Below, one piece after another: positions 12,417 through 27,979 of a stretch of DNA of 64,000 bases. Location of the stretch: contig JAHLLQ010000002.1 of NCBI GenBank assembly GCA_020444065.1, positions 434,001 through 498,000 on the forward strand, read 5' to 3'. Both the position numbers and the translations under genes were made by a program. Numbering within the stretch: position 1 is the stretch's first letter; every line of letters begins with the position of its first letter. The notes beneath the pieces are model-generated. The model had not been told where the DNA came from. It saw only the letters and a program-made list of their open reading frames with translations, and made no database searches. Source of the DNA: a bacterium (GTDB lineage Bacteria; Sumerlaeota; Sumerlaeia; SLMS01; JAHLLQ01).

Positions 12417-13382
12417 ATGCCAACCTCACCACCCCTTCTTCCCTTGGTTCGGGACGAACCTCAATTCGAGGCCCTGAAGTCGGCGGGCACGGATTTTCGG
12501 CCGGCGATGCGGGCGATTTGTGATCGGCATGGGATCGAGGCGAAGGAGTTGGTTCCGCTCACGCCGTCGAGCCTGATTGTGTTTCGGGCCGGCGATCGCG
12601 CGGTTGTGAAGTTGTTTCCACCCTGCTGTGAAAAGGAATTCACGGTCGAGTCGAAGGCGTTGGAGTTGTTGTCCGGCCGCGCCGAGGTGCCGACGCCGCG
12701 GTTGATTGCGACCGGGGAGTTGGAAGGTTGGCCGTACGTCGTGATGGAGCGCATCGCCGGCCGGCTTCTCTCCGACGCGTGGCCGGAGATTGCAGCGGCC
12801 GATCGCGAACGCCTGGCCGAGGACCTCGGGCGTTGTATCCGAGCGATGCACGATTCGCCGGCGGACGATCTGCCTCGGCCGGGCGGAGGCTCGTGGGAAG
12901 AAATGCAGGCCCGTTTCCAGGACGCGGCCCTGGCAAGGCACCGCGCATCCAGCGCGCCGCGGGAATGGATCGATGCGTTGCCGGAGTTTCTGGCCGGCCG
13001 GACGCTGCCACTGGAGGAGAATTGCCGCGCGTTGCTCCACACCGAACTGGCGGACATGCACATTCTCGTCGAGCGCGCTGCGGAACATTGGGAATTGCGT
13101 GGCGTGATCGATTTCGAGCCCGCCATGCCGGGCGATCCCATGTATGACTTCGCGGGCCTCGGGTTTCTGCTGTTCAACGGAGAGCACGCGCTGATCCGGC
13201 GATTCCTGCGCGCGTACGGAATCGCCGACTCACAACTCGGCGCGGAGTTCCAGGAAACGGCGCTGCGGTACGTGCTGACGCATCGTTACACGAACCTGGA
13301 GTGGTTTCTTTCGGCGATCCCACCAACGGGAGCGGCGGGGGACTTCAAGTCCTGGGCGCAAGATTGGTACGGGCTTGCGTGA
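12417..13382 (+). CDS. Aminoglycoside-phosphotransferase-like small-molecule kinase
   Basis: 321 residues from the ATG at 12417 (MPTSPPLLPLV); the frame is open further upstream but that part is repeat sequence. The APH fold is visible as SLIVFRAGDRAVVKLFP (nucleotide-binding lysine), the hinge WPYVVMERIAGRLL, a catalytic loop HTELADMHILV and the metal-binding segment GVIDFEPAMPGDPMYDF. The catalytic loop has Glu where most family members have Asp (HTE instead of HGD), a pattern I believe occurs in some APH-like subgroups. The substrate may be an antibiotic, a sugar or a small metabolite; resistance cannot be inferred. The sirtuin gene converges 10 bases downstream. Confidence 0.8.
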   Translation: MPTSPPLLPLVRDEPQFEALKSAGTDFRPAMRAICDRHGIEAKELVPLTPSSLIVFRAGDRAVVKLFPPCCEKEFTVESKALELLSGRAEVPTPRLIATGELEGWPYVVMERIAGRLLSDAWPEIAAADRERLAEDLGRCIRAMHDSPADDLPRPGGGSWEEMQARFQDAALARHRASSAPREWIDALPEFLAGRTLPLEENCRALLHTELADMHILVERAAEHWELRGVIDFEPAMPGDPMYDFAGLGFLLFNGEHALIRRFLRAYGIADSQLGAEFQETALRYVLTHRYTNLEWFLSAIPPTGAAGDFKSWAQDWYGLA

Positions 13383-24034: not shown

Positions 24035-24064
24035 TTGCTTGCATCTCTGTACCCCCTTTAGACT
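24035..24064 (+). promoter_or_regulatory. Candidate sigma-70 promoter for the YadA-head gene
   Basis: TTGCTT at 24035-24040 and TAGACT at 24059-24064 are separated by 18 bases. If used, transcription would begin near 24071 and give a leader of about 290 bases. Both boxes deviate from consensus, so support is moderate. Confidence 0.35.
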
Positions 24065-24070
24065 AAGCTC

Positions 24071-24362
24071 CTAGATACGAGAGCGAATTCAAGTACTGCC
24101 CGAATGGGGTTGATGCTCCATAAAGGCTGTCTTGTGCTACCACGAGCCTGACGGATTCTTTCTCCGGAAGGGGGATGGTGGAGACGGCAAAGCAGGGACG
24201 GAGTAGGCGTGGCAGGGTATTTGCGTACTTGGGATCGCTTCAGAAGTGGTGGTTGTACAGAATCTCACCTCTGGGATGAGACGAAACCGGCTTACACGTC
24301 ATTGTGCATGCCTGCCCAGCAAACGTCTATCCCCCAAATCTTCCTCTGCAAGGAGAGATACG
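24071..24362 (+). ncRNA. Long, potentially structured 5' leader (possible cis-regulatory RNA)
   Basis: No gene is visible between the candidate promoter and the ATG at 24363. Several complementary segments can be paired by eye: CAAGTAC near 24089 with GTACTTG near 24228; AGGC...TTGTG with CACGA-GCCT around 24122-24150; and TCTCC with GGAGA around 24170-24195. An alternative pairing CTCCG with CGGAG would compete with the last one, as in a switch. The unpaired stretch GACGGCAAAGCAGGG is A/G rich like a ligand-binding core and faintly recalls the c-di-GMP-I riboswitch, but the expected second hairpin does not fit. Identity unknown. Confidence 0.3.
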
Positions 24363-25748
24363 ATGACATCAGGCCGTATCGAAACTACGAAAGGCATTTC
24401 CAGATTCACAGCAACGGCTCTCTTCGCCGCTGCCGCTGGCATTTTTCTCGCCCCCCAGTATTCGGACGCAGCCCCGCTGCTGACGACTACCAAGGAATCC
24501 AATGTCGATGCGGTCTCCGTCGGCAGTAGCCCCGTCAAGCCCGCCGCGACTCGCGCCGGCACCGACGCCATCGAGATCGGCACAGGCGCCAACGCGTATG
24601 GCTTCCAGTCGATCGCCATCGGCTGGCTGGCTCGCTCCTACGACAGCTACGGCGTTGCCCTGGGCTCCTCGGCCCGCGCCTACGGCCTCTCCACGGCCCT
24701 CGGTCGCAACACCCGGACGGAGAACACTGGTGCTCTCGCCGTCGGCGCAAGTGCCCGCGCCATCGGCTTCGGTTCTGTCTCACTCGGCGAAGGTGCCGAG
24801 ACCGTGAACCACTCGATCGCGTTGGGTGCCTACTCCTCAGCGAACTACTTGTCCTCGATTGCGATCGGCTTCCAGATGGACACGACGGAGGACTACCAGA
24901 TCCTCCTCGGTAACCACTACAACAACACCGACGTGCCGGGCACGATGGCCATCTGGGGCGATCACCTCAACGTTGGCGCGGCTTCCCCAAGTGAACGCTT
25001 CGACCTGAACGGTCGCATGAAGCTGTGGAACACCACGCACCCGACCGATCTGCCGACCAGCGGCGTCGTCTTCTACGCCGTCGATGGAATGCCCTATCTG
25101 GCGACCCCGACGGGGTCTGTCACGCGCTCTTCCTATGATTTCGATCCGGCGCAGGTCGATCCGAAGGCCCGTTCCTCCTTCTCCGACTTGAGCGTGAAGG
25201 TCCCCATCTCGATCAACCAGTCCAATGCCTACCTCGGCAAGGGCACCGTCGTCGACCTGACCAAGGCCCTTAGCTGGGTCGAGCGCCAGATGCAGCGCGA
25301 GATGGGTCGCGAAGCCGGCAAGGTCTTCTATGATTACGATCTGCCGAACGCCTCGCACCGCAGCGCCGCGGACTTCCAGGTCAACGCGATGGCCGACGCC
25401 GTTATGGCCGACCTGGATGCGAATCCCTGGACCGAAGTCGAGATGGTTGGCAATCGCATCCCCGACAACGCTTGGGAAAGAGCGGAAGTCACCGAGTGGG
25501 TCGAGGTCGAGAAGACAGTCACCGACTACAAGGTCAACTGGGAAACCAACGAGGTTGTTCCCGTCCAGCGCACCGTTGTTGAGCCGCAACTGGTCGGAAC
25601 CGGCGAGTTCCACAAGCAGTTGAAGGACAACTACAAGCTGGAAGACGGCAAGCTGTATCGCCAGCGCACTGCTGACGACGTCGACTTCAGCCGCCTCGAT
25701 GTTCCCGAGCTTCCCTCTTGGGTTGGCAAGCGCGTCGCCACCAAGTAA
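24363..25748 (+). CDS. Secreted YadA-head-like (Hep/Hag repeat) protein without membrane anchor
   Basis: 461 residues from an ATG with an AAGGAGAGA ribosome-binding site. A signal peptide (TALFAAAAGIFLAP..DAA) is followed by YadA-type head repeats at about residues 55-170: FQSIAIGWLARSYDSYGVAL, LSTALGRNTRTENTGALAVG, GSVSLGEGAETVNHSIALG and YLSSIAIG. Such repeats form trimeric left-handed beta rolls in adhesins. The last 220 residues are a different, charged domain with no recognised fold (WVERQMQREMGREAG, WVEVEKTVTDYKVNWE) and there is no C-terminal YadA beta-barrel anchor. It therefore cannot be a self-translocating type Vc autotransporter; it may be a secreted or otherwise attached fibre. 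Codon use is strongly GC-biased, suggesting high expression. Confidence 0.8.
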   Translation: MTSGRIETTKGISRFTATALFAAAAGIFLAPQYSDAAPLLTTTKESNVDAVSVGSSPVKPAATRAGTDAIEIGTGANAYGFQSIAIGWLARSYDSYGVALGSSARAYGLSTALGRNTRTENTGALAVGASARAIGFGSVSLGEGAETVNHSIALGAYSSANYLSSIAIGFQMDTTEDYQILLGNHYNNTDVPGTMAIWGDHLNVGAASPSERFDLNGRMKLWNTTHPTDLPTSGVVFYAVDGMPYLATPTGSVTRSSYDFDPAQVDPKARSSFSDLSVKVPISINQSNAYLGKGTVVDLTKALSWVERQMQREMGREAGKVFYDYDLPNASHRSAADFQVNAMADAVMADLDANPWTEVEMVGNRIPDNAWERAEVTEWVEVEKTVTDYKVNWETNEVVPVQRTVVEPQLVGTGEFHKQLKDNYKLEDGKLYRQRTADDVDFSRLDVPELPSWVGKRVATK

Positions 25749-25769
25749 CAAGCTACTGCAGGAAGTAAC

Positions 25770-25809
25770 AACTGCCCGCACCGGATCGCCGGTGCGGGCA
25801 GTTTCTTTA
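25770..25809 (+). terminator. Rho-independent terminator between convergent fibre genes
   Basis: A perfect 15-base stem, AACTGCCCGCACCGG paired with CCGGTGCGGGCAGTT, with an ATCG loop, followed by TTCTTT. It sits 21 bases after the YadA-head gene and may also stop transcription from the opposite strand. Confidence 0.9.
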
Positions 25810-25837
25810 ATGCCGCTTTCGAGGGTGAGGGAACTCG

Positions 25838-27763
25838 TTAGTTGCCTTTTGCCAATGCTTCCTCAACTGACTTGAGCCTGTTCTCCAACTCATCCACGCG
25901 ATTCCGGAGATCTGCATTCTCCTCCTCCAGCTTCGCATTCAGCCCCTGAAGGGCCGCGATCGTTATCCCGTTCGCATCGGTTGTGGAGATGGCCTTGTCC
26001 GAATCGCCGAGGCCGAACGCAGCATAGAAATCCTCCGCCACTGGCCCGACGTGCTCGCCTTCCGAACTGCCGATATAACTCCACCGAGTGACCGGAAGAT
26101 CGACGATGCGCTGCAGGACATCCATCTTGTCCAGCGTGAGAAAGCCCTCTTTCAGTGCGCGACTCGAAGCGTTAGTCCACGTTCCACCGGGAGTCAGGTA
26201 AGCTCCATTTCCATTGCTGGATGTTGTGCCGACCTGGAACGCCTGGACGGTCGTGTCTCTGAAGAGCCCCATCTTGCTGTCGTCCGCCTCCAAGTAGAAC
26301 ACAGGGGCCTCCAATGTCTCATACGTGGACATGTTGAAGTCAAAACGGGGATCAATGCTCGATCTTCCATCAGCATAGGGATTGTTACGGTCATAATACC
26401 AGATCCAATCTGCATCCGCGGACATGGTCAGATTGTATGTCCTCCCCTCTCGAACAGGCACGGCATGATCCAGCGGCATACTGTACCAGCCGTAAGTGAA
26501 GTCGCCACTGACTTGGCCATGCCCAATCACGGTCCCAGAACTGCTGATCCAGTATTCAACCGTGGCGGGATTCGTCTGGGTCCTCCATAGCGCCCGTAAT
26601 TTGACGATATTGCTTGTGCGTGGTGCTGTCCAGATTTGATAGGCTGCCTCTCCTGGCTCCATATAGTGATAATTCGTCCAATCGGGAATGTTGATCACAC
26701 GTTGGCAGACTCCCGGATTCACGTACTCCAGTTCATTCGTTGGATCCGAGTCGTCATCGGCGATATCGATCCCAGTCAGTTTAGAGCCGTCTCCCTCGAA
26801 TTGCGCTGCATAGACAGTCCCACCCGCTTCGATATCGTCGGCGACCCACAGATCTGCCGCGCCATCTGTCCCAAAGTCGACATCGGCCGAAGAATCGATG
26901 TATACCAGATCGACTTCACCGCCGCTACCCACTGCCAGGCTGTCCTTGAATTGACTGGCAAAACCTGTCATCCCATGAATTACGGAGAATCGGTTGGCAT
27001 CCCCGGAACTCTGAACGCTGAAGAGCTGATACTCGCCCAGCGCGTCGGGATTATCCTGCGCTTGAACGACAAGACCCTGCGATGCAGGGGCACCCTTGGC
27101 GGTTTCGAAGCCATCCGTGAAGATCTGGTAGTTGCCGATGGCCAGATTTCCATAACTGACGTCTGTTGTGCCGCTGTCATTCAGTCCGCCATCCACGCCG
27201 ATACGAAGTGCGCTGTTCGTCTGCCCATCAGAGTGATTGCCCGAACCCGTTGAACCGGGAATCTGAACCCGGCCGAGGTTGAGAGCTTCCAACCCACTCG
27301 CATCCGATCCGGCCGCAAGAACGGCGCTCAACGACTGCAACTCGTTCGTCGGATCGCGATCGTTGTCATCCGCAGCGGTGCCTGCTGTTGCCGCGTGTAC
27401 CGCGTAGGGCACCGGCAGAATCTGAATGCGCGGAAGAACCGTCTCAAACGCATCCGTTCCACCATCCGGATCTACGTCAACTTGCATCCATCGTGGCGAT
27501 CCATCGAAGACCGCGCCGAAGTCCAACGACTCGTCGACCATTCCCTCTGCCGCGAGCGTATCCTCGTGCGTGATCGGTCCTGCAACGAGACTGCCAGTCG
27601 TTGCCTCGTCGTACAGCGAGAAGCGCAGGCTGACTGTCCCGTTGATGGGCGTTCCATCGTCCTCCAGGTGTCCCTGGTAACTGAATGCCGTTCCCGGCTC
27701 AGCGATTCCTGCGACTGCCGGCAGCAGAAATGCCAATATCGCCAAATAGCAATAACGTTGCAT
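25838..27763 (-). CDS. Secreted tail-fibre-like protein with C-terminal S74 intramolecular chaperone
   Basis: 641 residues from the ATG at 27763 (MQRYCYLAILAFLLPAVAGI, a signal peptide), with GGAGGGGAGG upstream. The N-terminus FSYQGHLEDDGTPINGTVSL through PRIQILPVPYAVHA is a beta-domain common in secreted proteins of environmental phyla. The middle is rich in DDxDPTNEL-type repeats (twice: DDNDRDPTNELQS, DDDSDPTNELEY) and a jelly-roll-like block. The end carries a Peptidase_S74 domain: SSRALKEGF keeps the Ser and Lys of the self-cleavage site, then WSYIGSSEGEHVGPVAEDFY, closing with a leucine-zipper-like coil (LEEENADLRNRVDELENRL). In phage fibres this domain trimerises the shaft and then cuts itself off. 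Convergent with the YadA-head gene. Confidence 0.85.
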   Translation of the reverse strand: MQRYCYLAILAFLLPAVAGIAEPGTAFSYQGHLEDDGTPINGTVSLRFSLYDEATTGSLVAGPITHEDTLAAEGMVDESLDFGAVFDGSPRWMQVDVDPDGGTDAFETVLPRIQILPVPYAVHAATAGTAADDNDRDPTNELQSLSAVLAAGSDASGLEALNLGRVQIPGSTGSGNHSDGQTNSALRIGVDGGLNDSGTTDVSYGNLAIGNYQIFTDGFETAKGAPASQGLVVQAQDNPDALGEYQLFSVQSSGDANRFSVIHGMTGFASQFKDSLAVGSGGEVDLVYIDSSADVDFGTDGAADLWVADDIEAGGTVYAAQFEGDGSKLTGIDIADDDSDPTNELEYVNPGVCQRVINIPDWTNYHYMEPGEAAYQIWTAPRTSNIVKLRALWRTQTNPATVEYWISSSGTVIGHGQVSGDFTYGWYSMPLDHAVPVREGRTYNLTMSADADWIWYYDRNNPYADGRSSIDPRFDFNMSTYETLEAPVFYLEADDSKMGLFRDTTVQAFQVGTTSSNGNGAYLTPGGTWTNASSRALKEGFLTLDKMDVLQRIVDLPVTRWSYIGSSEGEHVGPVAEDFYAAFGLGDSDKAISTTDANGITIAALQGLNAKLEEENADLRNRVDELENRLKSVEEALAKGN

Positions 27764-27902: not shown

Positions 27903-27940
27903 AAGGCAAAGAAAGACTGGCCTGACGGTGTCAGACCAGT
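27903..27940 (-). terminator. Probable terminator after the nucleotidyltransferase gene
   Basis: ACTGG-C-CTGAC-GGT-GTCAG-A-CCAGT (27916-27940) forms a 10-pair stem with one mismatch. On the minus strand it is followed by CTTTCTTTGCC. It lies 39 bases after the stop at 27980. Confidence 0.6.
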
Positions 27941-27979
27941 CCGAGGGAGTTCCTTTTGTCAGGGGACCGCTCTTCCGCT

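Follow-up and report, generated by a model that had tools for sequence, protein, structure and literature searches.

The known system closest to one of the two genes reported here is that of the MAT (mosaic adhesive trimer) fibres of Bdellovibrio bacteriovorus, the trimeric prey-binding surface fibres of a predator (Caulton et al. 2024, PMC10769870). In that system a signal peptide is followed by a conserved domain, the proteins end with or without S74 and the tips can be TNF/C1q-like (PMC10769870). Since this architecture has already been published (PMC10769870), the combination of a signal peptide and S74 in a surface fibre is not in itself a novelty. The other two systems that come close are the S74 fibres of phages, with the endosialidase chaperone (PF13884), and the type Vc trimeric autotransporter adhesins such as YadA. 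We found no mention of adhesins in two papers on Sumerlaeota.

The window, that is, the whole stretch of DNA analysed, has 64,000 nucleotides and comes from a Sumerlaeota genome (GCA_020444065.1). This genome has an Omp85/BamA homologue and therefore the cell is probably diderm. Two genes of the window, A and B, are convergent and 89 bp separate their stop codons. A sequence-only reading had described them as a convergent pair of secreted fibre-like genes, and both have turned out to be real genes, although the span given there began at 24035 and gene A begins at 24363. The features are the following:

24363..25748, plus strand: gene A, secreted YadA-head fibre-like protein of 461 aa (open reading frame with a Shine-Dalgarno-like sequence)
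24561..24929, plus strand: YadA-type head repeats of A, about residues 67-189, with a 13-14-residue period (Pfam, PDB, spacing)
25077..25745, plus strand: conserved C-terminal domain of A, about residues 239-461 (about 200 aa), of no known family (alignment A1)
25770..25803, plus strand: hairpin resembling an intrinsic terminator, in the gap between genes A and B (perfect stem of 15 bp; tail TCTTT)
25838..27763, minus strand: gene B, MAT-like chimeric fibre-like protein with an S74 chaperone, 641 aa (open reading frame with a Shine-Dalgarno-like sequence)
25850..25975, minus strand: C-terminal coiled coil of B, residues 597-638 (helix 597-638 in the model)
26015..26167, minus strand: Peptidase_S74 chaperone of B, residues 533-583, with S533 and K538 (Pfam, over the cut-off)
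26396..26671, minus strand: DUF4082-like beta-sandwich domain of B, about residues 365-456 (Pfam, model)
27356..27706, minus strand: N-terminal beta-sandwich of B (MAT-like N-domain), about residues 20-136 (alignment A6)

The Shine-Dalgarno-like sequence 5' of gene A is AAGGAGAGATACG, also given as AAGGAGAGATACGATG, and the one 5' of gene B, which starts at 27763 on the minus strand, is GGAGGGGAGGCCTTCG, also given as GGAGGGGAGGCCTTCGATG. The signal peptides of both proteins were called by eye, the one of A as a signal-peptide-like N-terminus. Each gene has a paralogue: that of A, on G000:C13, is 35% identical across residues 27-460, and that of B (C1:632315) is 55% identical across residues 1-635. 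Regarding the terminator that the two genes had been said to share, a hairpin does lie between them, and none of 2000 shuffles reached its GC-rich 15-bp stem, but its T-rich tail is on the plus strand and serves A only. A second terminator-like hairpin (27914-27942, minus strand) separates B from the end of the NTP-transferase gene. A search of the region for RNA elements returned none.

The S74 domain of B scores 23.7 bits (E=6.2e-5) against a gathering score of 22 for PF13884, and its catalytic Ser-Lys pair (SxxxxK) is intact as S533-SRAL-K538 (SSRALK at 533), which bears out the S74 assignment made from the sequence. Among the S74 domains of 16 relatives the Ser is kept in at least 90% and the Lys in all of them. 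B resembles the phage S74 fibres in this domain with its Ser-Lys pair and in the C-terminal coiled coil, and differs from them in that its S74 sits on a cellular protein with a signal peptide, whose N-domain gave no phage match. The middle of B had been read as repetitive and shaft-like, but this does not apply to residues 365-456, which form a globular DUF4082-like domain (Pfam E=7.6e-5, just under the family cut-off; pLDDT 84-95 across most of these residues). In the monomer model the middle is of low confidence, and we counted this against our best explanation.

Directly behind the signal peptide of B there is a conserved beta-rich domain, as in MAT proteins, and its model is a confident beta-sandwich (pLDDT mostly 91-98 at residues 31-110). 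This N-domain, like the conserved C-terminal domain of A, had been overlooked in the sequence-only reading. It is present in 26 of the 39 genomes of the class and in 21 copies in this genome, and the paralogues, again as in MAT, combine a common N-domain with varied, mosaic tips: an LVIVD beta-propeller with or without S74, DUF4082 plus S74, C1q and others. S74 occurs in four proteins of the genome, and the N-domain is present in each of them. In one region (L084:7744-16263, G000:C3:262-271 kb) four MAT-like N-domain genes stand in tandem with a common ...GRALSETELLLDIE tip at the end. The NCBIfam model Bdello_MAT_N (NF053851) was matched by 12 of 33 aligned N-domains, with a best E-value of 6.1e-8, while no Pfam or other family matches the members consistently. 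B itself reaches E=5.6e-4 (15.5 bits at full length, 19.8 bits for the domain alone), short of the curated cut-off of 60 bits, and the best score in the genome is 35.3 bits; thus, we term B MAT-like and not a member of MAT. By sequence comparison, the N-domain of B is a divergent relative of the domain that defines the Bdellovibrio MAT.

The likeness to the Bdellovibrio system (PMC10769870; NF053851) extends to the whole plan: a signal peptide, a beta-rich N-domain of about 110-130 aa, a variable middle and a tip with or without S74, in about 21 paralogues per genome, with TNF/C1q-like tips in the members without S74. Nevertheless, there are differences. S74 occurs on 4 of 21 copies here and on 13 of 21 in Bdellovibrio, the N-domain is far under the curated cut-off, DUF4082 and LVIVD-propeller modules are found here, some family members have a small secreted protein as a recurrent neighbour, and Sumerlaeota is not known as a predatory phylum. 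B belongs to a repertoire of MAT-like chimeric fibres, whose trimerisation, cleavage, surface display and ligand binding are inferred. In the mechanism that we propose, B would be exported via its signal peptide, the N-domain would most likely dock the fibre at the cell surface, the middle would provide a shaft and a carbohydrate-binding-like DUF4082 module, and the C-terminal S74 would trimerise the fibre and then cut itself at Ser533, exposing the tip.

Gene A is of another kind. The YadA_head family is matched over the cut-off (Pfam E=2.5e-6), the nearest solved structure of the head is PDB 1p9h (E=6.6e-7), and about 8 repeats follow one another every 13-14 residues. The Pfam search found no YadA_anchor in A, so the earlier description of a signal peptide and a YadA head with no barrel stands. 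Moreover, no score for YadA_anchor exceeded the cut-off in any of the 39 class genomes, and therefore A is not on the type V route via that anchor. A is thus similar to the type Vc adhesins in its YadA-type head repeats after a signal peptide, and differs from them in having another C-terminal domain in place of the anchor barrel, with the anchor above the cut-off in 0 of 39 class genomes. Our results support the view that A and B are secreted and fibre-like and do not follow the type V route.

The C-terminal domain of A is shared with the paralogue on contig C13 and with relatives in other Sumerlaeota. Of the 39 class genomes 8 contain it, and a search of about 347 other genomes gave no case. 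Its holders are Sumerlaeota and two MAGs titled just 'bacterium', and the closest named records are Candidatus Sumerlaeota MAGs. We found no relative of it in Pfam or PDB, and none in IMG/VR or in phage records, on which ground we rejected a viral origin of the domain. The model (pLDDT 76-91 at residues 331-450) has a long helix and a long beta hairpin. The fold search gave no significant match, with Foldseek weakly listing the S74 chaperone 3gw6 and L-shaped tail fibres; homology to S74 was rejected in a profile comparison (hhalign probability 0.1%). S74-like modules that we had seen by eye in the relatives from G017 and G019 were unsupported by the profile. A divergent relative of the domain at L070:8-525 (PIPWTFYTKNAYLG...) suggests that the family has further members beyond those collected here. 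On some contigs with A-type genes (G018 and G012) there are also type I-C CRISPR-Cas-like genes, recognised by eye (L080:259-6244 and L095:540-5861).

A would be a fibre of a second type: the signal peptide leads into a YadA-type beta-roll head, which is followed by a short fibre segment and, at the C-terminus, by a domain limited to Sumerlaeota. In the relatives of A this domain stands behind varied N-terminal parts (a beta-helix-like region, head repeats, another shaft) and runs straight on from the fibre motif, as S74 does. Because it occupies the position of S74 in other fibres, follows different N-terminal parts and continues the fibre motif, we propose that it is most likely a trimerisation cap or chaperone, which may be independent of S74. 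The main rival is that the domain is not a folding cap and instead serves as a signal for sorting or anchoring, or as a module that binds a partner. In favour of this, it is the sole conserved part among relatives whose N-terminal parts are otherwise unrelated. It might also serve a partner, as two genomes from one family have a large secreted RHS-repeat protein encoded immediately behind the A-type gene and in the same direction (gaps of 128 and 183 bp):

L078:1120-9177 (G000:C13): RHS-repeat protein downstream of an A-type gene, with a PT-HINT pretoxin domain
L079:1-3210 (G004:C213): RHS-repeat protein downstream of an A-type gene

These two genomes have two and one DUF6531 genes in all. However, a direct extension of the fibre motif is what S74 makes too, and in one relative (G016, L072:1501-2293, minus strand) an S74 protein is followed closely, in a neighbouring frame, by the last part of the domain, an arrangement that may be a frameshift, an assembly error or a real boundary. 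We therefore regard the anchoring or partner-binding role as a real possibility that falls short of being probable.

Regarding the relation between the two genes, they had been taken together as one system, a functional pair forming a two-component trimeric surface fibre. Their convergent arrangement with 89 bp and a hairpin in the gap, as well as the secreted and fibre-like nature of both, would fit this, and at the genome level all 8 genomes with the C-terminal domain of A also have N-domain genes, compared with 18 of the 31 others (Fisher p=0.025), a weak association that could reflect genome size. Nevertheless, convergent genes cannot share a promoter, and the neighbourhoods speak against a pair: no N-domain gene or intact S74 gene is near the relatives of A (in complete contigs of 51, 25 and 18 kb and in stretches of 34, 12 and 10 kb), the neighbours of the 55% paralogue of B are unrelated with no A-type gene beside it, and each family has many members without the other nearby. 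The pairing is not conserved, the claim of one system fails in this comparison and we rejected it as very improbable. We consider it just as improbable that B and its relatives are left over from phage tail fibres, or that they are parts of a tailocin or of a contractile injection system. Phages do commonly have S74 and fibre motifs, but the phage matches are limited to the S74 end of B, B has a signal peptide, its N-domain is spread across 26 of 39 class genomes, and the window neighbours to which we could give a name have metabolic roles (P-type ATPase, lysine-decarboxylase-like, NTP transferase, SHMT and epimerase). Thus, the window probably holds two independent secreted fibre-like genes that converge by chance, B being MAT-like and A of a second kind.

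The small secreted protein mentioned above has a GGG...GQPDAG...GGFW core, often ends in DWML or GWTVR (alignment A8) and directly adjoins 18 of the 57 N-domain genes examined, in at least 9 genomes and nearly always on the same strand. Examples, among others, are:

L084:11757-12077: small GGFW protein (alignment A8)
L085:10372-10653 and 12687-12968: small GGFW proteins (alignment A8)
L092:15682-15960: small GGFW protein (alignment A8)
L093:9024-9305: small GGFW protein (alignment A8)

In 329 kb of this genome, which is DNA centred on N-domain genes, all 7 copies lie at most 300 bp from a same-strand N-domain gene, whereas 20,000 random placements put on average 0.24 copies near such genes and never more than 4. 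Neither A nor B has this protein adjoining. The NCBIfam family CPR_pilus_PamT was weakly matched by 5 of 17 small GGFW proteins (best 2.7e-7); our literature search found no PamT paper and therefore we make no claim of a pilus. The protein is a candidate surface partner of the MAT N-domains. A bolder reading, in which the Sumerlaeota MAT-like N-domains dock on the adjacent small GGFW protein and the C-terminal domain of A is, in addition, a new S74-independent trimerisation cap, we consider unlikely as a whole.

A and B are ordinary as a pair and informative as members of two larger, partly undescribed fibre families. With gene B and its paralogues, the plan of chimeric fibres of the Bdellovibrio type reaches an uncultured phylum, where the repertoire is about as large, and gene A shows that YadA heads can sit on a protein without an autotransporter barrel and with an undescribed C-terminal domain. 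The small GGFW protein offers a testable candidate for the surface element that holds MAT-type fibres, and docking on it, if true, would answer what the MAT N-domains bind.
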